Assembly: GCA_023264755.1 (NCBI GenBank)
Contig: JAHFVB010000095.1
Span: forward strand, 1-11,667
From: Mycobacterium sp.
GTDB taxonomy: Bacteria; Actinomycetota; Actinomycetes; Mycobacteriales; Mycobacteriaceae
DNA length: 11,667 nt
Direction: 5' to 3'
The notes beneath the pieces are model-generated. The model had not been told where the DNA came from and searched no databases. It saw only the letters and a program-made list of their open reading frames with translations. Positions 1,535 through 11,138 of the stretch are shown here, piece after piece; the first letter of the stretch is position 1; each line of letters opens with the position of its first letter. Both the position numbers and the translations under genes were made by a program.

Positions 1535-3138
<1,604 letters not shown>

Positions 3139-3144
<6 letters not shown>

Positions 3145-4068
3145 CAACGTCCGCTCCTTGAGCGCCAGTGCCTGCTGTCCCCGCTGGTAGCTGACCTCCC
3201 GGATTCCCAGGGCGTCCCGCAACTTGCCCGCGGGCAGGGTCAACGGCTTTGGCGCCGGACCGACACCGGGCTGGGGCAGGGGGTACGCGGTCGTGGTGCC
3301 GCTGAAGAACTTCACGTTGCCCTCGGTCTTGGAGAAGACTTGGTGCACGTGACCGTTCAGACACGTCACCGAGGCGAACCGTTTCAGATGTGACAGCGCT
3401 TGGACGGAATCGTCGGTGCTCCAACCCCAGTCGGGGTACATCGCGAACAGCGGGATATGGCTGAAGACGATGATCGGGGTGTCGCTGGACAGGGGCGCCA
3501 CGTCCTTCTCGACGAACTCGAGCTGGTCGACGCCGAGGTGCCCCAACTTGGTCATGTGCAGCGTGTTCACCAAGGCGATGACGTGGACCCCGGCGATGTC
3601 GAAGCTGTACCAGCCGTCTCCGCGGGTACCCGCACCAAATGCCTGGCGATACTTCTGCCCGGCGTCGTCGACCGAGTCGTGTTCCCCTGGCACGGTGAAC
3701 ACGTGCGGCGTGTTCACCCCGGACAGCATCTGCTTGACCTGGTCGAACTGTCCGGGCGTGGCCAGGTGCGTGAGATCGCCGGTGTGGATGACGAAGTCGG
3801 GCTGGTAGCCCAGGTTGTTGAGCTGGTCGACGGCCCGTCCGAACGATCCGGTCACGTCGGTGTTGGCCGGACCGGTGAAGCCGATGTGACTGTCGCTGAC
3901 CTGTGCGAAGCGCAGCGTGGGCCGAGTCTCGGTGGCGGTGCCGGCCCCCGCGACGTGGGAGATCACCTCTCCGCCGACGACGGCGAGTCCAACGGCCGCG
4001 CCGAACCAGGCGCTGTGCCTGATGAGTTGGCGCCGGCTCATCGTTTTGGGGGCTTCGGACTCGCTCAT
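3139..4068 (-). CDS. Tat-exported calcineurin-like metallophosphoesterase
   Basis: A 309-residue protein with a twin-arginine signal at the N-terminus (S11-R-R-Q-L-I, then a hydrophobic stretch at residues 21–38 ending near AGA). A calcineurin-like phosphoesterase domain follows. The metal-ligand motifs appear in order: D59-S-H61, G97-D98, G128-E-H130-D131, H204 in FSHIP, and G239-H-V-H242. In the common form the third motif is GNH(D/E); here the asparagine is a glutamate. The domain should act outside the membrane on a phosphoester of unknown identity. The start is the ATG at 4068, which forms an ATGA overlap with the upstream cupredoxin stop; an earlier in-frame start at 4113 would lie inside that gene and displace the Tat signal. 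It is last in the leftward sigma–Rieske–cupredoxin cluster. Confidence 0.9.
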
Positions 4069-4541
4069 GCCGTCACCACCACGGTGCCGTGCATGAACGG
4101 ATGGATCGAGCACACGTAGTCGAACGTGCCCGCCGTCGGAAAGGTGAACGAGTACGTGGCACCGGCGCCAAGCGCCTGCGAGCGGAAGGCTCCTCCCCCG
4201 TCGACCACGGTGTGCGGATCCTCGTCCTTGTTGGTCCAGGTGACGGTGGTGCCCGCTTTCACCGTCAGAGTTGCTGGGGCAAAGGCGAATCCATCGATGT
4301 TCACCTCGTTGGGGCCAGCCGGCGCGGCCGCGGCGGTCGGTGTCGAACCGGCCGACCCCGACGGGGTCATGGGTATCCCGCCCATACCGGGCATGCCAGG
4401 GGTCGAGGCGACGTCGCTGCTGAACGTCGGGGTCGGTTGGTGCGCCGCCTGATCGGTGGCCGTGCAGGCGGCCAGTAGCAGCGTGGCCGCGGTCAGGGGG
4501 ACGCTGGCCGCGACGGCCACGCGCTGGGTTCGTCGGAACAC
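4065..4541 (-). CDS. Cupredoxin-domain lipoprotein (amicyanin/plastocyanin-like)
   Basis: A 158-residue exported blue-copper protein. The N-terminus is a lipoprotein signal with lipobox L-A-A-C26, so the mature protein should be lipid-anchored on the outer face of the membrane. Residues 27–77 form a Pro/Ser/Thr/Ala-rich tether containing three methionines in GMPGMGGIPM (M50, M53, M58). A single cupredoxin domain follows (residues 78–158) with the complete type 1 copper set: H110, C144, H147 and M150. The C-x2-H-x2-M spacing is the short ligand loop of amicyanin. It probably shuttles electrons or binds copper; the partner is not known, but the neighbouring Rieske protein is a candidate. The GTG start at 4541 is firmly set by GGAGGT at 4549–4554, seven bases upstream. 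The stop overlaps the next gene's start. Confidence 0.93.
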   Translation of the reverse strand: MFRRTQRVAVAASVPLTAATLLLAACTATDQAAHQPTPTFSSDVASTPGMPGMGGIPMTPSGSAGSTPTAAAAPAGPNEVNIDGFAFAPATLTVKAGTTVTWTNKDEDPHTVVDGGGAFRSQALGAGATYSFTFPTAGTFDYVCSIHPFMHGTVVVTA

Positions 4542-4548
4542 GACGGGT

Positions 4549-4554
4549 ACCTCC
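4549..4554 (-). promoter_or_regulatory. Strong Shine-Dalgarno site of the cupredoxin gene
   Basis: On the minus strand these bases read GGAGGT, a near-perfect Shine-Dalgarno sequence seven bases before the GTG at 4541. It fixes the start of the cupredoxin lipoprotein and is the strongest ribosome site in this cluster, which suggests high expression of that gene relative to its neighbours. Confidence 0.85.
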
Positions 4555-4569
4555 GTTGTCGGTGTGACG

Positions 4570-4588
4570 GTCCCGCGGGCTGCGGGAC
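4570..4588 (-). other. GC-rich hairpin between Rieske and cupredoxin genes
   Basis: A perfect 7-bp stem, GTCCCGC (4570–4576) against GCGGGAC (4582–4588), with a five-base loop. It lies immediately downstream of the proposed sigma-dependent promoter and ahead of the cupredoxin ribosome site. There is no T-tract on the minus strand. It could weaken read-through from the Rieske gene, protect an mRNA end, or be a protein-binding site. The structure is visible; the role is inferred. Confidence 0.4.
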
Positions 4589-4616
4589 GCTCACCAACAG
4601 ATAGGGAAGCGGGTTA
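4589..4616 (-). promoter_or_regulatory. Predicted ECF-type promoter upstream of the cupredoxin gene
   Basis: On the minus strand TAACCCG (4616–4610) is followed after 12 bases by TTGGTG (4597–4592) and then by N-GC. The same arrangement with the same spacing precedes the sigma factor gene at 5920–5947; 20 of 28 positions agree. An AAC-containing -35 box with a GC-containing -10 box is the usual form of ECF sigma promoters. The element begins seven bases after the Rieske stop codon, so it would give the cupredoxin–phosphoesterase pair its own transcript. Recognition by the local sigma factor is inferred. Confidence 0.6.
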
Positions 4617-4622
4617 CTCGAG

Positions 4623-5348
4623 TCAGGTCTGCTCGGTGCTGCTTGGAGGTGCGAACACCTCGATGACGCCGTCGCGCTCCCGAACCTCCAACTTGGGCAA
4701 GGGTTTCGGGGCGGTCGGCAGCTGGTGGCCGAGCACCTGACCGGCCTTGGAGAACGACGTCGAGTGGCATGGGCAGCGCAGGCGATCGTCGGGTCCGTCG
4801 AACCACAGTCGGCAACCCTGGTGCGTGCAGATGCCGGAGATGCCCTCGGCGCGGCCGTCGACCCGCTGGACGAATCCGACGACGGAGCCCAGGTCGAACG
4901 GACGCATGACCCCCTCGGCCACATCCGAGCTCGCGGCCACGCGTTGCCAGGAGCCGTCGGTGGGTACCAACTCCTGCGCGACCGATGCGTCGTCGCCCTG
5001 CTGAGCGCCGATCAGCCGGTCGACGGCGACCGCCGCAACGGCGGCGGTCGCGGCGGCCGACGTGCCCACGATCAGTTGGCGCCGGTTGGCGCGCAACCAC
5101 GAAGGCGCCGGGGCGGCTTCGGTTCCTGGCGTTCCGGTGTCCGGCTCGGCCCCGTCGAACTGCGCTGCGAGCCTGGCGTGCAAGTCGGCCAGGAACTCTG
5201 GACGCGGTTCGCCGGCGCCGGGACGGGCCGCCTGCATGTCTATCGCGGTGCGCATCTGCGCGGCCTCGAACTCATCCGGGGTGAAGCCCTTGGGCTTGCG
5301 GTTGCGCTGCAGGTCGTCGAGATAGCGGCGGAGCCCTCGCTCGTTCAT
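4623..5348 (-). CDS. Rieske [2Fe-2S] protein with long cytoplasmic N-terminus and Tat/membrane segment
   Basis: A 241-residue protein. Residues 1–85 are hydrophilic and charged. A Tat-like N-R-R-Q-L-I motif (88–93) is followed by an Ala/Val-rich hydrophobic segment (94–109). The C-terminal part (about 125–236) is a Rieske domain with box I C174-T-H176-x2-C179 and box II C192-P-C194-H195. Cluster ligands should be C174, H176, C192 and H195, with a C179–C194 disulfide. The Rieske domain would lie outside the membrane and the N-terminus inside. The ATG at 5348 has GAAGGG four bases upstream and overlaps the sigma-factor stop as ATGA; the frame continues upstream but only inside the sigma gene. 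No cytochrome b or c gene is nearby, so this is not an ordinary bc1 subunit. Coupling to an ECF sigma factor suggests a redox-sensing or anti-sigma role, which is unproven. Confidence 0.88.
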   Translation of the reverse strand: MNERGLRRYLDDLQRNRKPKGFTPDEFEAAQMRTAIDMQAARPGAGEPRPEFLADLHARLAAQFDGAEPDTGTPGTEAAPAPSWLRANRRQLIVGTSAAATAAVAAVAVDRLIGAQQGDDASVAQELVPTDGSWQRVAASSDVAEGVMRPFDLGSVVGFVQRVDGRAEGISGICTHQGCRLWFDGPDDRLRCPCHSTSFSKAGQVLGHQLPTAPKPLPKLEVRERDGVIEVFAPPSSTEQT

Positions 5349-5890
5349 GGCGTGCCCTTCTCGTTGACCTGCGCCGCCAACCGCAGCGCCCGGTGCTGGA
5401 GCACTTTGGCGTTGGCGACGCTGACCCCCATGTCCGCGGCCGATTCCTTGATCGATCGGTTCTGGAGGAAGCGCAGTTCCAGTATGCGGCGATAGTTGTC
5501 GGGCAATGCTTCCAGCACCGAGGCAACGCGTTCGGGTGCCGCGCTGCTCGCCTCCTCGCTGTGCGGCGGGGCGGCGATGTCTGCTTCGATCTCCGTGATC
5601 TCCCGGCCCATCGTCTGACGCCAATGCGCGGCCAACACGGTGCGGGCGGTGTTGCGCAGGTATGTCCGCACCTCGGCGGCGCTGGCGCTCAGGCGCAGCG
5701 GCCGCAAGGCCGCCAGGAAGACCTCAGCGGTGAGATCCTCGGCGTCGGCCTGGTTTCCGACCCTGGCGTAGATCATTCGGTACACCCAGGTCGCGTTGTC
5801 CTGATAAACGGCCTCCCAGTTGGGATAGCGGTCGTCGGACGACACCACCCGCAGGGGGCGCGGGTGTGCAGGGTCTCGTCGTGCCGTCAC
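5345..5890 (-). CDS. ECF-subfamily RNA polymerase sigma factor
   Basis: A sigma-70 family protein of 181 residues from the start chosen here, of ECF type with only regions 2 and 4. Region 2 covers about residues 25–66 and contains the polymerase-contacting DAEDLTAEVFLAAL (49–62). Region 4 covers about 123–175 (LEALPDNYRRILELRFLQNRSIKESAADMG and onward, ending RALRLAAQ) and holds the helix-turn-helix. The start is uncertain. A GTG at 5941 would fall inside the predicted promoter and lacks a ribosome site. The GTG at 5890 lies downstream of that promoter with a weak AGG site six bases upstream; GTGs at 5848 and 5845 are also possible. No recognisable zinc-finger or RskA-type anti-sigma gene follows; the Rieske gene overlaps its stop. 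I cannot assign it to a named M. tuberculosis sigma factor. Confidence 0.9.
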   Translation of the reverse strand: MTARRDPAHPRPLRVVSSDDRYPNWEAVYQDNATWVYRMIYARVGNQADAEDLTAEVFLAALRPLRLSASAAEVRTYLRNTARTVLAAHWRQTMGREITEIEADIAAPPHSEEASSAAPERVASVLEALPDNYRRILELRFLQNRSIKESAADMGVSVANAKVLQHRALRLAAQVNEKGTP

Positions 5891-5919
5891 GTGTCGCCTG
5901 TCTACGTCGGGGAGGCCGT

Positions 5920-5947
5920 GCACACCAAGAACTAGCGGCACGGGTTA
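5920..5947 (-). promoter_or_regulatory. Predicted autoregulatory ECF promoter of the sigma factor gene
   Basis: On the minus strand TAACCCG (5947–5941), 12 bases, TTGGTG (5928–5923), then N-GC: the same bipartite element as at 4589–4616. Transcription would begin around 5910–5915, which rules out the GTG at 5941 as a start and favours 5890. The -35 half lies inside a perfect dyad, CGGGTT-AC-AACCCG (5941–5954), which may be coincidental or may let a second regulator bind. Autoregulation is typical of ECF sigma factors; here it is inferred from the duplicate site. Confidence 0.6.
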
Positions 5948-5981
5948 CAACCCGATTGGGGTCAAGCAGATCAAAGTCGCC

Positions 5982-6074: not shown

Positions 6075-6104
6075 TTGCGCGCACTCGCGAACCGTTACTA
6101 GGAT
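6075..6104 (+). promoter_or_regulatory. Candidate housekeeping promoter of the mmsA operon
   Basis: TTGCGC (6075–6080) could serve as -35 and TAGGAT (6099–6104) as -10, with an 18-base spacer. TAGGAT fits the mycobacterial TANNNT consensus. Transcription would start near 6111, leaving a leader of about 40 bases with its own ribosome site. The -10 lies inside the palindrome at 6094–6115, the arrangement expected for repression. Prediction from sequence only. Confidence 0.5.
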
Positions 6105-6115
6105 GTCCTAGTAAC
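6094..6115. promoter_or_regulatory. Perfect palindromic operator over the mmsA -10 region
   Basis: The half-sites GTTACTAGGA (6094–6103) and TCCTAGTAAC (6106–6115) are exact reverse complements separated by TG. Ten-base arms without mismatch are far beyond chance for this short intergenic region and are typical of sites for dimeric TetR- or GntR-type repressors. It lies 36 bases before the mmsA ATG and covers the candidate -10 box. The cognate regulator is not in the window. Confidence 0.7.
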
Positions 6116-6151: not shown

Positions 6152-7672
6152 ATGACCACACTCATTCCGCACTTCATCGACGGCCAGCGCACCGCGGGCA
6201 CGTCGACCCGAACCGCCGACGTACTCAACCCCAGCACGGGCGAGGTTCAGGCCCAGGTGCCGATGGCATCCGCCGCAGAGGTCGACTCCGCCGTCGCGAT
6301 CGCGGTCGAGGCGCAGAAGGGGTGGGCCGCCTGGAACCCCCAACGCCGCGCCCGAGTCATGATGAAGTTCGTCGAGTTGGTCAACAAGAACGCCAACGAA
6401 CTCGCCGAACGGCTCTCCCTGGAACATGGCAAGACCCACGCCGACTCCCTCGGCGACATTCAGCGCGGTGTCGAGGTCATCGAGTTCGCCATCGGCATCC
6501 CCCACCTGCTCAAGGGTGAGTACACCGAAGGGGCGGGCGGCGGCATCGACGTCTACTCGCTGCGTCAGCCCCTGGGCGTGGTGGCCGGCATCACGCCGTT
6601 CAACTTCCCCGCGATGATCCCGCTGTGGAAGGCCGGCCCCGCACTGGCCTGCGGAAACGCCTTCATCCTCAAGCCCAGCGAGCGCGACCCGTCCGTGCCG
6701 GTCCGGCTCGCCGAACTCTTCGAGGAGGCCGGGCTGCCCAAGGGCGTGTTCCAGGTCGTGCACGGCGACAAGGAAGCCGTCGACGCGATCTTGAACAACG
6801 ACGACATCAAGGCCGTCGGCTTCGTCGGCAGCTCCGACATCGCCCAGTACATCTACTCGACCGCGGCGGCCAACGGTAAGCGCGCACAGTGCTTCGGCGG
6901 CGCCAAGAACCACATGATCGTGATGCCGGACGCCGATCTGGACCAGGCCGTCGATGCCCTGATCGGGGCGGGCTACGGCAGCGCCGGCGAACGCTGCATG
7001 GCCATCAGCGTCGCAGTCCCCGTCGGTGAAGAGACTGCGAATCGGTTGCGCGCCAGGCTCGTCGAACGGGTCAACCAGTTGCGCGTGGGCCACAGCCTGG
7101 ACCCCAAGGCCGACTACGGCCCACTGGTCACCTCGGCTGCGCTGGCCAGGGTCAAGGACTACATCAAGCAGGGCATCGAGGCGGGCGCCGAGGCCGTCGT
7201 GGACGGTCGCGAACGCGGTAGCGACGACCTGACCTTCGGTGACGCCAGCCTCGAGGGTGGCTACTTCATCGGACCCACCCTGTTCGACCACGTCACCACA
7301 GACATGTCGATCTACCGGGACGAGATCTTCGGACCGGTGCTGTGCATCGTCCGGGCGGACACCTACGAAGAAGCGTTGGCGCTGCCATCGGAGCACGAGT
7401 ACGGCAACGGCGTGGCGATCTTCACCCGCGACGGCGACACCGCCCGCGACTTCGTCTCACGCGTGCAGGTCGGCATGGTCGGCGTCAACGTGCCGATCCC
7501 GGTTCCGGTGGCGTACCACACCTTTGGTGGCTGGAAGCGGTCCGGTTTCGGCGACCTGAATCAGCATGGGCCGGCCTCGATCGTCTTCTACACCAAGGTC
7601 AAGACGGTCACTCAGCGCTGGCCCTCGGGCATCAAGGATGGCGCCGAGTTCTCCATCCCCACCATGAAGTAA
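6152..7672 (+). CDS. mmsA: Methylmalonate-semialdehyde dehydrogenase (CoA-acylating) MmsA
   Basis: A 506-residue aldehyde dehydrogenase that oxidises methylmalonate semialdehyde, with CoA and NAD, to propionyl-CoA and CO2 at the end of valine breakdown. The catalytic cysteine is C282 in GSAGERCMA; the oxyanion asparagine is N151 in TPFNFP; the cofactor lysine is K174 in LKPSE. Where ordinary aldehyde dehydrogenases carry ELGGK with a general-base glutamate, this protein has CFGGAKNH, the form of the CoA-dependent MMSDH family. Length is typical. The ATG at 6152 has AGGGA six bases upstream. It is the first gene of an operon with fadE9 and mmsB, the order I recall from M. tuberculosis Rv0753c–Rv0751c. 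The palindrome over its promoter suggests repression lifted by a pathway metabolite. Confidence 0.95.
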   Translation: MTTLIPHFIDGQRTAGTSTRTADVLNPSTGEVQAQVPMASAAEVDSAVAIAVEAQKGWAAWNPQRRARVMMKFVELVNKNANELAERLSLEHGKTHADSLGDIQRGVEVIEFAIGIPHLLKGEYTEGAGGGIDVYSLRQPLGVVAGITPFNFPAMIPLWKAGPALACGNAFILKPSERDPSVPVRLAELFEEAGLPKGVFQVVHGDKEAVDAILNNDDIKAVGFVGSSDIAQYIYSTAAANGKRAQCFGGAKNHMIVMPDADLDQAVDALIGAGYGSAGERCMAISVAVPVGEETANRLRARLVERVNQLRVGHSLDPKADYGPLVTSAALARVKDYIKQGIEAGAEAVVDGRERGSDDLTFGDASLEGGYFIGPTLFDHVTTDMSIYRDEIFGPVLCIVRADTYEEALALPSEHEYGNGVAIFTRDGDTARDFVSRVQVGMVGVNVPIPVPVAYHTFGGWKRSGFGDLNQHGPASIVFYTKVKTVTQRWPSGIKDGAEFSIPTMK

Positions 7673-7689
7673 GAGCGGGAAACTCCGAC

Positions 7690-8865
7690 ATGGACTACTT
7701 TGCGCTCGACGACGACGAGCGCGTGATCGCCGAGACGGCAGCAGAATTCGCCGACAAGCGCATCGCGCCGTACGCGTTGGAGTGGGATGCGACGAAGCAC
7801 TTCCCCACCGACGTATTGCGAGCGGCCGCGGAGCTGGGGATGGCGGCGATCTACTGTCGGGAAGACGTGGGCGGCAGCGGCCTGCGCCGCCTGGACGGCG
7901 TGCGGATCTTCGAACAACTGGCCGTCGCCGACCCGACGACCGCGGCGTTCCTGTCGATCCACAACATGTGTGCCTGGATGGTCGATACGTACGGCACCGA
8001 CGAACAGCGCAAGCAGTTGATGCCGCGCCTGGCCTCGATGGAGCTGATCGCCAGCTACTGCCTGACCGAGCCGGGCGCCGGATCCGATGCAGCGGCGTTG
8101 CGCACCAAGGCCGTTCGGGACGGTGAACACTGGGTGCTCGACGGCGTCAAGCAGTTCATCTCCGGAGCGGGTACCTCGGACGTGTACATCGTGATGGCGC
8201 GCACCGGCGACCCGCAGACCAAGCCCGGACCGCGCGGGATCTCCGCCTTCGTCGTCGAGAAGGACACTCCAGGGGTCAGCTTCGGCGCCGACGAGTACAA
8301 GATGGGCTGGAACGCCCAACCCACCGCACAGGTGGTGTTCGAGGGCGCCCGCATTCCGCTCGATGCCATGCTGGGCGGCGTCGACGGCGAGGGCACCGGG
8401 TTTGGCATCGCGATGAATGGGCTCAACGGCGGTCGGCTCAACATCGCCGCGTGCTCGCTCGGTGGAGCGCAGGCCGCCTACGACAAGGCGGTGGCCTACC
8501 TCGCCGACCGCGAGGCCTTCGGCATGCGCCTGCTCGACGAGCCCACCATCCGCTTCGCGCTCGCCGACATGGCTACCGCCCTGGAGGCCTCGCGAACCCT
8601 GTTGTGGCGGGCCGCCACCGCCCTCGACGACGACCACCCGAACAAGGTCGAGCTGTGCGCGATGGCCAAACGCTATGTCACCGACTCCTGTTACGACGTG
8701 GCCGACCAGGCCTTGCAACTGCATGGCGGGTACGGCTATCTGCGTGAGTACGGACTGGAGAAGATCGTCCGCGATCTCCGCGTGCATCGGATTCTCGAGG
8801 GCACCAACGAAATCATGCGCGTGGTCATCGGCCGGGCGGCCGCCGCCCGGGCGCGCGCGTCGTAG
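7690..8865 (+). CDS. fadE9: Acyl-CoA dehydrogenase, probable isobutyryl-CoA dehydrogenase FadE9
   Basis: A 391-residue FAD-dependent acyl-CoA dehydrogenase; in this operon it most likely oxidises isobutyryl-CoA to methacrylyl-CoA in valine catabolism. Visible family features are the flavin-contacting YCLTEPGAGSD (123–133), KQFISGAG (154–161), the C-terminal LHGGYGYLREY (344–354) and the catalytic base E370 in RILEGTNEIMR. The start is the ATG at 7690, where homology begins (MDYFALDDDERVI); the frame is open much further upstream but only through mmsA. It follows mmsA by 17 bases with a modest GCGGGA ribosome site and precedes mmsB by 31. The substrate is inferred from context and from the M. 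tuberculosis gene order; short branched-chain alternatives such as 2-methylbutyryl-CoA cannot be excluded. Confidence 0.92.
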   Translation: MDYFALDDDERVIAETAAEFADKRIAPYALEWDATKHFPTDVLRAAAELGMAAIYCREDVGGSGLRRLDGVRIFEQLAVADPTTAAFLSIHNMCAWMVDTYGTDEQRKQLMPRLASMELIASYCLTEPGAGSDAAALRTKAVRDGEHWVLDGVKQFISGAGTSDVYIVMARTGDPQTKPGPRGISAFVVEKDTPGVSFGADEYKMGWNAQPTAQVVFEGARIPLDAMLGGVDGEGTGFGIAMNGLNGGRLNIAACSLGGAQAAYDKAVAYLADREAFGMRLLDEPTIRFALADMATALEASRTLLWRAATALDDDHPNKVELCAMAKRYVTDSCYDVADQALQLHGGYGYLREYGLEKIVRDLRVHRILEGTNEIMRVVIGRAAAARARAS

Positions 8866-8896
8866 TCGAACAGTCATAGTCGAAAGGGAGCCGTAC

Positions 8897-9772
8897 ATGG
8901 CGACGATCGCGTTCTTGGGGCTGGGCCACATGGGTGGTCCGATGGCGTCCAACCTGGTCGCGGCAGGACACACCGTGCGGGGCTTCGACCCGGTCGCCGC
9001 CCTCAGGGAGGCCGCCGAGGCCAAGGGCGCCAGCGTGTTCGACAGCGGTGCCGAAGCCGTCGCCGAGGCCGACGTGGTGATCACCTCACTGCCCAACGGC
9101 GACATCGTCAAGCGGTGCTACGCCGAGGTGCTGCCCGCCGCCAAGGCCGGTGCGCTCTTCATCGACACGTCGACCATCTCCGTCGACGACGCCAGGGCCA
9201 TTCACGGAGCTGCCGTCGCCGCAGGTTTCGCCCAACTCGACGCGCCGGTCTCCGGAGGCATCAAGGGGGCCACCGCGGGCACGTTGGCATTCATGGTCGG
9301 CGGTGAGGAAGCGGCCGTCGAACGCGCCAGGCCGATCCTGGAACCCATGGCGGGCAAGATCATTCACTGCGGAGTGTCCGGTGCCGGTCAGGCCGCCAAG
9401 TTGTGCAACAACATGGTGCTGGCCGTGCAGCAGATCGCCATCGGCGAGGCGTTCGTACTGGCCGAGAAACTCGGTTTGCCCGCCCAGTCGCTATTCGACG
9501 TCATCACCGGTGCCACCGGAAACTGCTGGGCAGTGCACACCAATTGCCCCGTCCCAGGACCAGTTCCGACGTCCCCGGCCAACAACGACTTCCAGCCCGG
9601 TTTCGCGACGGCACTGATGAACAAGGACCTCGGGCTGGCGATGGACGCCGTGACCTCCACCGGATCGGCGGCGCCGCTGGGCACCCATGCCGCCGAGCTC
9701 TACGCGAAGTTCGCCGCCGACCACGCCGACAAGGACTTCAGCGCGATCATCGAGACCTTGCGCCAGTCCTGA
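8897..9772 (+). CDS. mmsB: 3-hydroxyisobutyrate dehydrogenase MmsB
   Basis: A 291-residue NAD-dependent beta-hydroxyacid dehydrogenase that oxidises 3-hydroxyisobutyrate to methylmalonate semialdehyde, the substrate of MmsA. The Rossmann motif G8-L-G-H-M-G13 opens the protein. The substrate-binding DAPVSGG lies at 115–121. The catalytic lysine K168 and N171/N172 fall in SGAGQAAKLCNNM (161–173), and the C-terminal FATALMNKDLGLA (236–248) is characteristic of the HIBADH branch. The ATG at 8897 has AAAGGGAG six bases upstream; the frame runs back into fadE9 but carries no homology there. It closes the operon and is followed by a large hairpin at 9793–9852. The intermediate enoyl-CoA hydratase and hydroxyisobutyryl-CoA hydrolase steps are not encoded here. 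Confidence 0.95.
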   Translation: MATIAFLGLGHMGGPMASNLVAAGHTVRGFDPVAALREAAEAKGASVFDSGAEAVAEADVVITSLPNGDIVKRCYAEVLPAAKAGALFIDTSTISVDDARAIHGAAVAAGFAQLDAPVSGGIKGATAGTLAFMVGGEEAAVERARPILEPMAGKIIHCGVSGAGQAAKLCNNMVLAVQQIAIGEAFVLAEKLGLPAQSLFDVITGATGNCWAVHTNCPVPGPVPTSPANNDFQPGFATALMNKDLGLAMDAVTSTGSAAPLGTHAAELYAKFAADHADKDFSAIIETLRQS

Positions 9773-9862: not shown

Positions 9863-10741
9863 CTACCAGAGCAGCGACGTCTGGACGTGACCCAACTCCG
9901 CCTTCTGCTTGCCGCTGGCATCGTGGCACGACAACGTCACGTTGTAGGTGGTGACGGTCGGTGCGCCATTGAAGGTCTCGGTGTGAGTTCCATTCGCAGG
10001 CACGTTGAACTGTCGGGTCGTCTTCTTGGGCACCAACGGGTTCAGCGAATTCGCCGTGGCGGTGTAATTGCACGTCGCCGTGAGGTTCGACGTGTTCGTC
10101 ACGTTGAAGTCGACGCTGGTGAGCCCCGGATCCCCGAACGATGCCTGGATCGCGTTGGTCACATCTGGAATCGGGGCACAGGTCTGACCGGCCGGAACCG
10201 TCGGGGTCGGTGACCCGGCCGGGCACGTGATATCCGGTTTCGGCGCCGCTACCGGGCATTGCTGGCCAGCCGGAACGGTCGATCCATCGCTGCAATTCAC
10301 GGGCGGCGGGGCAGCCGGCGCCGGTGGCTTGCCGAACACGATCGTCGTCGTGCTGACCTCGTTGGCCTCGTCTCGGAAGAAGCCGACGCCGAAGTCCTTG
10401 TAGGCGCAGTCGTTGATGGTGGCCGAAGCCGAACCCACCAGTGCACCCGTGGCTGCTGGATCCGCCCGTTGGATGTACTTCTTCTCGGCGCCCTTGTATC
10501 GACCGGAGGGCGGGACTCCCTTCAGGTTGTTACCCGCGTACGCTTGCGCGTCGCCCTCCAACTCGATGCTGTAGTTCAGTGGCGGACAGGTTGATTGACC
10601 TCGGGCACCATTGACCGCGCCCCTGATGTCACCCAGCGGGTCAGCACTGGCGACCGGCGCCAGCGTCATGACCACCCCGGCCCAGGCGAGACAGGCCACC
10701 GCGGCCGCGGTGGCAAGTCGCTTCGGAATACGTACTCTCAT
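9863..10741 (-). CDS. Secreted cysteine-rich protein, CAP-like N-terminal region and beta-rich C-terminal region
   Basis: A 292-residue exported protein. A Sec signal peptide (basic RVRIPKR, hydrophobic core, AxA at 31–33) should be cleaved before D34. Residues 38–138 (VNGARG...CPPLNY..., then DCAYKDFGVGFF) faintly recall the CAP/SCP-like secreted proteins of mycobacteria, but I see no catalytic histidines. Residues 139–190 are a Pro-rich linker holding two cysteine loops that share TVPAGQ. Residues 191–292 look like a beta-sandwich. Mature cysteines fall into neat pairs: C52–C112, C150–C162, C173–C188 and C224–C272. The ATG at 10741 has GAGGGG six bases upstream; an in-frame start at 10780 would put 13 residues before the signal peptide. 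The gene is monocistronic, convergent with mmsB, and its function is unknown. Confidence 0.85.
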   Translation of the reverse strand: MRVRIPKRLATAAAVACLAWAGVVMTLAPVASADPLGDIRGAVNGARGQSTCPPLNYSIELEGDAQAYAGNNLKGVPPSGRYKGAEKKYIQRADPAATGALVGSASATINDCAYKDFGVGFFRDEANEVSTTTIVFGKPPAPAAPPPVNCSDGSTVPAGQQCPVAAPKPDITCPAGSPTPTVPAGQTCAPIPDVTNAIQASFGDPGLTSVDFNVTNTSNLTATCNYTATANSLNPLVPKKTTRQFNVPANGTHTETFNGAPTVTTYNVTLSCHDASGKQKAELGHVQTSLLW

Positions 10742-11138
10742 AATCGTCCCCTCGATAGTGTTCGTCGTGATACCGCCCAACTAGCCAGACGAGTCCCCGA
10801 ACACACCCGGCGCGCCACGGAAGCGTATGGCTGAGAGCGGGGTCGAGTAATCAGGTGTTTCCCTATGATTTGCGGTTCAACGCAAACGCGTGTGTTCATG
10901 CCCGGCTCTCGTCCTCCCCCGATCCGACTGGGTCGGACGGCATTCGCGACATCCTCCTGTTGCTGGATGCGCGCCGTTGACGGTATTTCCCCAGCCGGAG
11001 TGGGCGAGTGAGTAGCGCACTACGCGATTCGGCGTGACGGGCCCGCACACCTACCGGGTCGGCGCCGAGCGAACCGAGGCGCGCTTGGGTGGGCGCTGCG
11101 AAAGCCCTATTGGTACAACGTCGGGAGCGAAGCCGACG
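10742..11138. other. Intergenic region without a recognised gene
   Basis: About 400 bases between two minus-strand genes. It must carry the promoter of the secreted protein, but I find no convincing -35/-10 pair; TTACTC and TACGCT with 17 bases between them are the best weak candidate on the minus strand. Small perfect dyads are present: TTTGCG-N6-CGCAAA (10869–10886) and TCCGAC-N3-GTCGGA (10923–10937). No tRNA, CRISPR array or transposon end is visible. A non-coding RNA cannot be excluded. Confidence 0.6.

Follow-up and report, generated by a model that had tools for sequence, protein, structure and literature searches.

A TGTAACC-N7-CTAT element conserved with a mycobacterial ECF sigma factor gene that adjoins a gene for a Rieske protein, its probable anti-sigma factor

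Background

Membrane anti-sigma factors of the SigK-RskA type have a cytoplasmic N-terminus, one membrane segment and an outer domain. Two further ECF systems are of interest here. According to the available parts of the respective reports, BldN has the motif CGTAAC-N16-CGTTGA (PMC2375139), its gene is adjoined in Streptomyces by that of the anti-sigma factor RsbN (PMC4255298), and in the BldN-RsbN complex a class III anti-sigma domain places helices 1 and 2 on sigma4 and helix 3 on sigma2 (PMC7406223, where the partner names are swapped). For Caulobacter SigF the accessible portion of the report (PMC3511200) gives the motif GTAACC-N16-CGAA and states that SigF is not strongly autoregulated under metal stress and that NrsF depends on two cysteines.

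We report that an ECF sigma factor gene of Mycobacterium sp. (assembly GCA_023264755.1, contig JAHFVB010000095.1; the window, i.e. the whole stretch of DNA analysed, is 11,667 bases long) adjoins a Rieske protein gene and shares an element of the form TGTAACC-N7-CTAT with a neighbouring cupredoxin gene. Its resemblance to SigK-RskA lies in the topology outlined above and in a sub-threshold RskA_C match in one relative (E 0.012, the Pfam cut-off not being reached), whereas the outer domain is here a Rieske cluster domain. With BldN-RsbN it has in common the GTAAC core, an adjacent candidate anti-sigma gene and three helices (here modelled); the differences are a profile score far below the cut-off, an N7 instead of an N16 spacing, the putative Rieske sensor domain, and the Rieske N-terminus of the window, for which PDB sequence searches returned no solved anti-sigma chain. 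Like SigF-NrsF it combines a GTAACC upstream element, a small regulon and a (here putative) negative regulator second in the operon, in contrast to an N16-CGAA second element and weak autoregulation under metal stress for SigF, and the part of that report available to us does not mention a Rieske domain in NrsF (PMC3511200). Moreover, approximately residues 133-231 resemble in sequence and fold the Rieske subunits of cytochrome b6f/bc1 and arsenite oxidase, from which the protein differs in its extra cytoplasmic N-terminal module and its sigma neighbour; among the identified window genes no cytochrome or oxidase partner was found. A literature search, judged mostly by titles and the first lines of abstracts, found no Rieske-linked ECF sigma/anti-sigma system.

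Methods

The genome assembly that contains the window is 4.75 Mb and 70% complete. Orthologous loci came from two sources, 148 genomes of the genus (58 sigma-positive; 30 loci used, one of them from the own genome) and 34 named loci (L033-L066). The 64 sigma upstream regions comprise the window and 63 loci. Three named loci (L033, L036 and L043) belong to the same genomes as L004, L005 and L006, so that each of these genomes contributes two entries to the sets of 64 sigma and 56 cupredoxin regions and one to the sets of 61 and 53 distinct regions. The loci are related and the counts are therefore not independent. Distant ECF matches (L067-L112) were not used.

The first matrix left out a second, far-upstream GTAACC match in L014. 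Near-identical sites were collapsed from 63 to 47 and from 52 to 38 for the matrix, and from 37 to 24 and from 166 to 121 for the start analysis. Additional candidate targets were named by eye from their translations and one member per type was subjected to Pfam. In the hhalign comparison the second family consisted of 20 proteins (the L193 protein and its relatives).

Results

Gene organisation and the two elements of the window

The features of the locus are listed in Table 1. The sigma gene would have 181 codons if GTG at 5890 is its start, which was picked by eye via N-terminal similarity to orthologues. In a 166-residue query the Pfam matches covered residues 14-77 and 106-155 and there was no other domain, i.e. 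sigma2 and sigma4 only with a short linker, as in ECF (group IV) factors. The nearest ECF profile is that of the BldN family (TIGR02952), with 75.4 bits against a cut-off of 206.45 and thus below membership, and the nearest solved chain is 6dxo_A, which we take to be BldN. The ATG of the Rieske gene overlaps the stop codon of the sigma gene, the metallophosphoesterase start overlaps the cupredoxin stop codon, and the Rieske and cupredoxin genes are separated by 81 bases (4542-4622).

Table 1 Features of the locus (window coordinates)
Feature	Position	Strand	Basis or remarks
Sigma promoter element	5923..5949	-	TGTAACC 5949-5943, CTAG 5935-5932; predicted transcription start near 5923
ECF sigma factor gene (sigma2 + sigma4)	5345..5890	-	Pfam Sigma70_r2, r4 and r4_2 above cut-off
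Rieske protein gene, proposed anti-sigma factor	4623..5348	-	Pfam Rieske, structure model, alignment, hhalign
Cupredoxin promoter element	4592..4617	-	GTAACC 4617-4612, CTAT 4604-4601; predicted transcription start near 4592
Cupredoxin lipoprotein gene (amicyanin/plastocyanin-like)	4065..4541	-	Pfam Copper-bind and Cupredoxin_1 above cut-off; lipoprotein signal by eye
Calcineurin-like metallophosphoesterase gene	3139..4068	-	Pfam Metallophos above cut-off

The preliminary description of this DNA had pointed to TAACCCG-N12-TTGGTG-N-GC on the minus strand at 4589-4616, in the 81-base gap, and at 5920-5947, between the sigma gene and a divergent aldehyde dehydrogenase gene, and had seen the combination nowhere else. 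Both copies were recovered with zero mismatches and with the coordinates, strand, spacing, gap length and identity (20 of 28 positions) as described, and they are the only exact matches genome-wide (none for the reversed control). Allowing up to three mismatches gave four places in the window, the two extra ones with three mismatches each, compared to 0.30 expected. The motif as it had been written did not stand in its TTGGTG half, for the element starts at GTAACC (4617 and 5948), and the other part of it that is strongly conserved is CTAT.

Each window copy is one base off the family consensus: the sigma site has CTAG where most relatives have CTAT, and the cupredoxin site has A for T before GTAACC. 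A search with the 27-base consensus and at most three mismatches gave no match in the own genome because its own sites are variants. A looser pattern recovered the cupredoxin site and one other place, missed the sigma site and had three control matches; the other place (on C338) is antisense to longer open frames and was discounted as a target. Only the two sites appear credible in this incomplete genome.

Conservation upstream of orthologous genes

GTAACC-N7..9-TA[CTG] is present in 63 of the 64 sigma and 52 of the 56 cupredoxin upstream regions, compared to 0.05 and 0.1 after dinucleotide shuffling (distinct regions, 60/61 and 49/53). The four remaining cupredoxin regions (L010, L017, L018 and L026) carry GTAACG in an identical layout, and all 53 distinct cupredoxin regions match if GTAACG is allowed. 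The narrower GTAACC-N8-TA[TC] was found in 62/64 and 48/56 regions (shuffles 0 and 0.05; distinct, 59/61 and 45/53), and where TGTAACC is present TA[TC] follows eight bases on in 59 of 60 sigma and 47 of 51 cupredoxin regions, the other four cupredoxin regions having seven. Since TTGGTG is rarely kept (1/64 sigma and 11/56 cupredoxin regions; distinct, 1/61 and 10/53), the invariant parts are TGTAACC and CTAT. A weaker GTAACC-N15..17-GGTGA occurs in 14/64 and 21/56 regions, the most conserved pair being eight bases apart (GTAACC to TA[TC]). The sole sigma region without the element is that of Solihabitans (L064), where none was found upstream of the sigma gene and one is present after the Rieske gene instead. 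Near the phosphoesterase start in relatives there are only two GTAAC words, neither of the element form.

The cupredoxin-phosphoesterase pair is colinear in 15 and divergent in 16 of the 34 named loci (not found in three), and the element precedes all 31 copies. On the level of sequence, this gene rearrangement is a natural experiment in which the element moves with the cupredoxin gene when the latter is inverted or relocated. In three loci with a divergent cupredoxin gene (L129, L130 and L181) GTAACC elements stand back to back as a palindrome-like pair with 11-14 bases between them.

Co-occurrence with the sigma gene

A sigma gene of this type was detected in 164 of 396 sampled genomes of the genus, and the strict pattern TGTAACCNNNNNNNSTATCNNNNGG in 105 of the 396 (reversed control, one genome). 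Specifically, the strict motif is present in 101 of the 164 sigma-positive compared to 4 of the 232 sigma-negative genomes (Fisher p 1.6e-44, uncorrected for kinship). The 63 sigma-positive genomes without it, the own genome included, presumably carry variant bases. As to the four sigma-negative genomes, G090 has a decayed locus, G274 (80% complete) has a shortened cupredoxin-like frame, the match in G300 looks like chance, and that in G358 is a PPE site. An earlier, different pattern had matched 37 of 148 genomes (control, 1). At the level of the order a related pattern matched 7 of 249 genomes (control, 2), all seven belonging to the 20 sigma-positive ones, 13 of which do not match. Among ten orthologues outside the genus, from five families, nine have the element upstream of the sigma gene; in the remaining one it precedes a neighbouring DoxX gene. 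Moreover, the phosphoesterase is found in 51 of 58 sigma-positive compared to 1 of 90 sigma-negative genomes.

Two genomes without a detected sigma gene (G090 and G056) still carry the element. In these decayed loci (L125 and L210, respectively) the Rieske gene is broken or truncated and the element before the cupredoxin gene is retained; in L210 a glycine-rich stretch, presumably PE_PGRS-like, apparently fills the gap. G056 was set aside as independent proof of a link between the domains, given that the sigma gene and approximately the first 87 Rieske codons were apparently lost in one rearrangement.

Predicted regulon

Conservation in orthologues, persistence through rearrangement and co-occurrence with the sigma gene together lend good support to the prediction that the sigma factor controls its own gene and, separately, the cupredoxin-phosphoesterase pair. 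An element shared by the sigma gene and its putative targets, as expected for autoregulation, is likewise seen when the DNA alone is considered. In these respects the preliminary description is borne out: both sites are kept far above chance in the orthologous clusters of related mycobacteria and survive rearrangement. Its view of a self-contained regulon is not supported, as in relatives further genes, some of them distant from the sigma gene, are preceded by the element. They comprise a PPE gene located outside the sigma locus in ten genomes (L163-L172; nine sigma-positive), a gene for a small secreted protein (approximately 74-108 residues) in ten, DoxX in four and TatA in one. Pfam confirmed PPE, DoxX and TatA (one member each); the small secreted protein had no Pfam or NCBIfam match. 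The twin arginines R89 and R90 of the Rieske protein are invariant in 33/33 sequences and twin arginines are also present in the phosphoesterase, and both proteins look like Tat substrates; TatA as a candidate target fits the twin arginines of both.

Start codons and promoter geometry

Counting from the G of GTAACC, 37 of 203 distinct sites have an ATG at +25, all 37 opening frames of at least 70 codons, compared to eight or fewer at other offsets. As far as translations were examined, these genes encode the cupredoxin, DoxX and the secreted protein, and the +25 ATG is also seen outside the genus (L188, L190, L191 and L194). For the cupredoxin this ATG must be the start, because the lipoprotein signal begins there and the length differences correspond to whole codons (judged by eye). 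The base before the leaderless ATG (position 24) is a pyrimidine in 24/24 deduplicated sites. Words for ribosome binding peak at +26 to +29, and many sigma genes then start at +35 to +42.

With start codons at precisely this distance of 25 bases from the G of GTAACC, transcription probably starts there, which would place GTAACC near -25 and not, as the -35/-10 layout implied in the preliminary description requires, at -35. On the simplest reading, transcription probably starts at +25 and the mRNAs are leaderless where the ATG sits at this position. CTAT would then cover -12 to -9 and TGTAACC -26 to -20. This layout would be shorter than that of a normal ECF promoter by about one turn; to our knowledge, TGTAACC and CTAT are approximately one helical turn closer than the elements of any ECF promoter. 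Going by holoenzyme structures and their geometry, GTAACC and CTAT at N7 should not both be reached by an ECF factor whose linker has the normal length. SigA -10 elements follow the rule TANNNT, and a SigA-type -10 for the predicted start was rejected, the last T missing in most sites. An RNA hairpin or riboswitch was set aside on inspection by eye.

The Rieske protein

In the structure model the N-terminal 64 residues form helices at 3-14, 26-41 and 50-64 (block pLDDT 67-86), so that three cytoplasmic N-terminal helices, as in RsbN (class III), are predicted. They are followed by a twin-arginine membrane segment at approximately 87-112 (by eye; low model confidence) and the Rieske domain (Pfam Rieske, 47.8 bits; cut-off, 20.3). 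The C-x-H ... C-x-x-H ligands and the disulfide cysteines (C174, H176, C179, C192, C194 and H195) are invariant in 33/33 sequences, and in 63/63 loci the sigma match is followed, 0-21 bases on, by the start of the Rieske-protein match. In two genomes of another family (L192 and L193) the product of the gene after the sigma gene shares the N-terminal module, likewise has a membrane segment and differs in its outer domain, and hhalign of both families aligned columns 1-99 only (probability 99.3, E 5e-20). An exchanged outer domain with the sigma factor and module kept is what an anti-sigma factor would show, and from this comparison the Rieske protein is probably the anti-sigma factor of the adjoining sigma factor.

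The module had no detectable match to a known anti-sigma domain, and PDB sequence searches with the N-terminal module up to E 10 returned one unrelated chain each and no solved anti-sigma homologue. Among the matches listed by Foldseek for the full model all were Rieske proteins or oxygenases with a Rieske domain; comparison of the full model hence did not probe the anti-sigma part.

Discussion

From the conservation of the element, its co-occurrence with the sigma gene, its movement with the target gene and the exchange of the outer domain, we infer the following course of events. The ECF sigma factor would read TGTAACC-N7-CTAT, with CTAT as the -10 element, GTAACC near -25 and transcription starting approximately 25 bases after the G of GTAACC, and would positively control its own operon (sigma factor and Rieske protein). 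The second copy of the element would bring the cupredoxin-phosphoesterase pair under the sigma factor, which in relatives may also control small secreted proteins, DoxX, TatA and a PPE gene. The three-helix cytoplasmic N-terminus of the Rieske protein is proposed to hold the sigma factor, anchored by the twin-arginine membrane segment, and the outer [2Fe-2S] domain to sense the redox or metal state of the envelope and release it. Taken jointly, the sigma factor as reader, the start at +25 and the Rieske protein as membrane anti-sigma factor with envelope sensing form a reading that we consider likely.

The main rival to this promoter geometry is an ordinary ECF promoter, with GTAACC as the -35 element, [CT]GGTGA approximately 16 bases on as the -10 element, a start roughly 33-36 bases after the G and CTAT as an unexplained feature of the spacer. 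It draws on the motifs given in the available parts of the SigF (GTAACC-N16-CGAA; PMC3511200) and BldN (CGTAAC-N16-CGTTGA; PMC2375139) reports: BldN is the closest ECF family by profile, its motif resembles the family GTAAC-N16-[CT]GGTGA, and there is moderate conservation of GG at 22-23 and of TGA at 24-26. Yet the GGTGA spacing is far less frequent than that to CTAT in the upstream regions (14 compared to 62 of 64, and 21 compared to 48 of 56), nearly all leaderless sites have GG[CT]ATG in place of GGTGA, and the +25 start codons, which occur in three unrelated gene families, and the ribosome-binding words at +26 to +29 would both lie upstream of such a start; we regard an ordinary promoter as unlikely. 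Alternatively, the element could be an operator, bound by another transcription factor and overlapping promoters that a different sigma factor uses, the ECF factor not being its reader. That the element is not at -35 of the predicted start would agree with this, and an accessory DNA-binding protein would account for the invariant bases from -26 to -20. Against an operator, the element is asymmetric, keeps a set distance to the predicted start where start codons fix it, and tracks the sigma gene across 396 genomes; the sigma factor is the sole DNA-binding protein among the five window proteins followed through the loci, and the aldehyde dehydrogenase gene adjoins in only part of them, which makes such an operator very improbable.

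With regard to the Rieske protein, it might serve as electron-transfer partner of the cupredoxin and not as anti-sigma factor, the sigma factor being controlled otherwise. Rieske and cupredoxin domains are classic redox partners, and the invariance of the cluster ligands and of two further cysteines in 33/33 sequences is in keeping with such a role. Nevertheless, the Rieske gene overlaps the sigma stop codon in the window, it is beside the sigma gene in all 63 loci even with the cupredoxin gene elsewhere or not found, and in L192 and L193 the same type of sigma factor is accompanied by the N-terminal module and membrane segment but no Rieske domain. Electron transfer in place of an anti-sigma role thus seems distinctly unlikely, and both roles could be true.

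Returning to the reading with the sigma factor as reader and the Rieske protein as anti-sigma factor, these data yield both a sharp motif and the candidate regulon of an ECF sigma factor that occurs in the 164 genomes of the genus and in ten genomes sampled from five further families of the order, and they lead us to propose an iron-sulfur anti-sigma factor. Should the predicted start be correct, the spacing would contradict the accepted view of how ECF holoenzyme contacts the promoter. That the promoter has no -35 element at all (TGTAACC at approximately -26 to -20, CTAT at approximately -12 to -9) and that, in addition, the anti-sigma factor uses its Rieske cluster as a redox sensor of the envelope is a tentative suggestion, to which we give somewhat less than an even chance; if true, such a promoter would require sigma4 off its usual seat or a second DNA-binding part.

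Other features of the window

Positions 1-1527 hold genes for two adjacent, similar-looking F420-dependent oxidoreductases, the second being TIGR03620 above cut-off, and a 305-residue protein with a signal-like start (9863-10780) had no NCBIfam match at E 1e-10. The dTDP-rhamnose genes rmlB and rmlC (1538-3144) converge with the phosphoesterase gene. Valine catabolism genes are located at 6152-9772, with methylmalonate-semialdehyde dehydrogenase and 3-hydroxyisobutyrate dehydrogenase above cut-off and an acyl-CoA dehydrogenase between them. Finally, a perfect inverted repeat, GTTACTAGGA-TG-TCCTAGTAAC, at 6094-6115 between the sigma and methylmalonate-semialdehyde dehydrogenase genes is possibly an operator of the valine catabolism genes, and ATCCTAGTAAC was found upstream also in L004, L032, L033 and L046.
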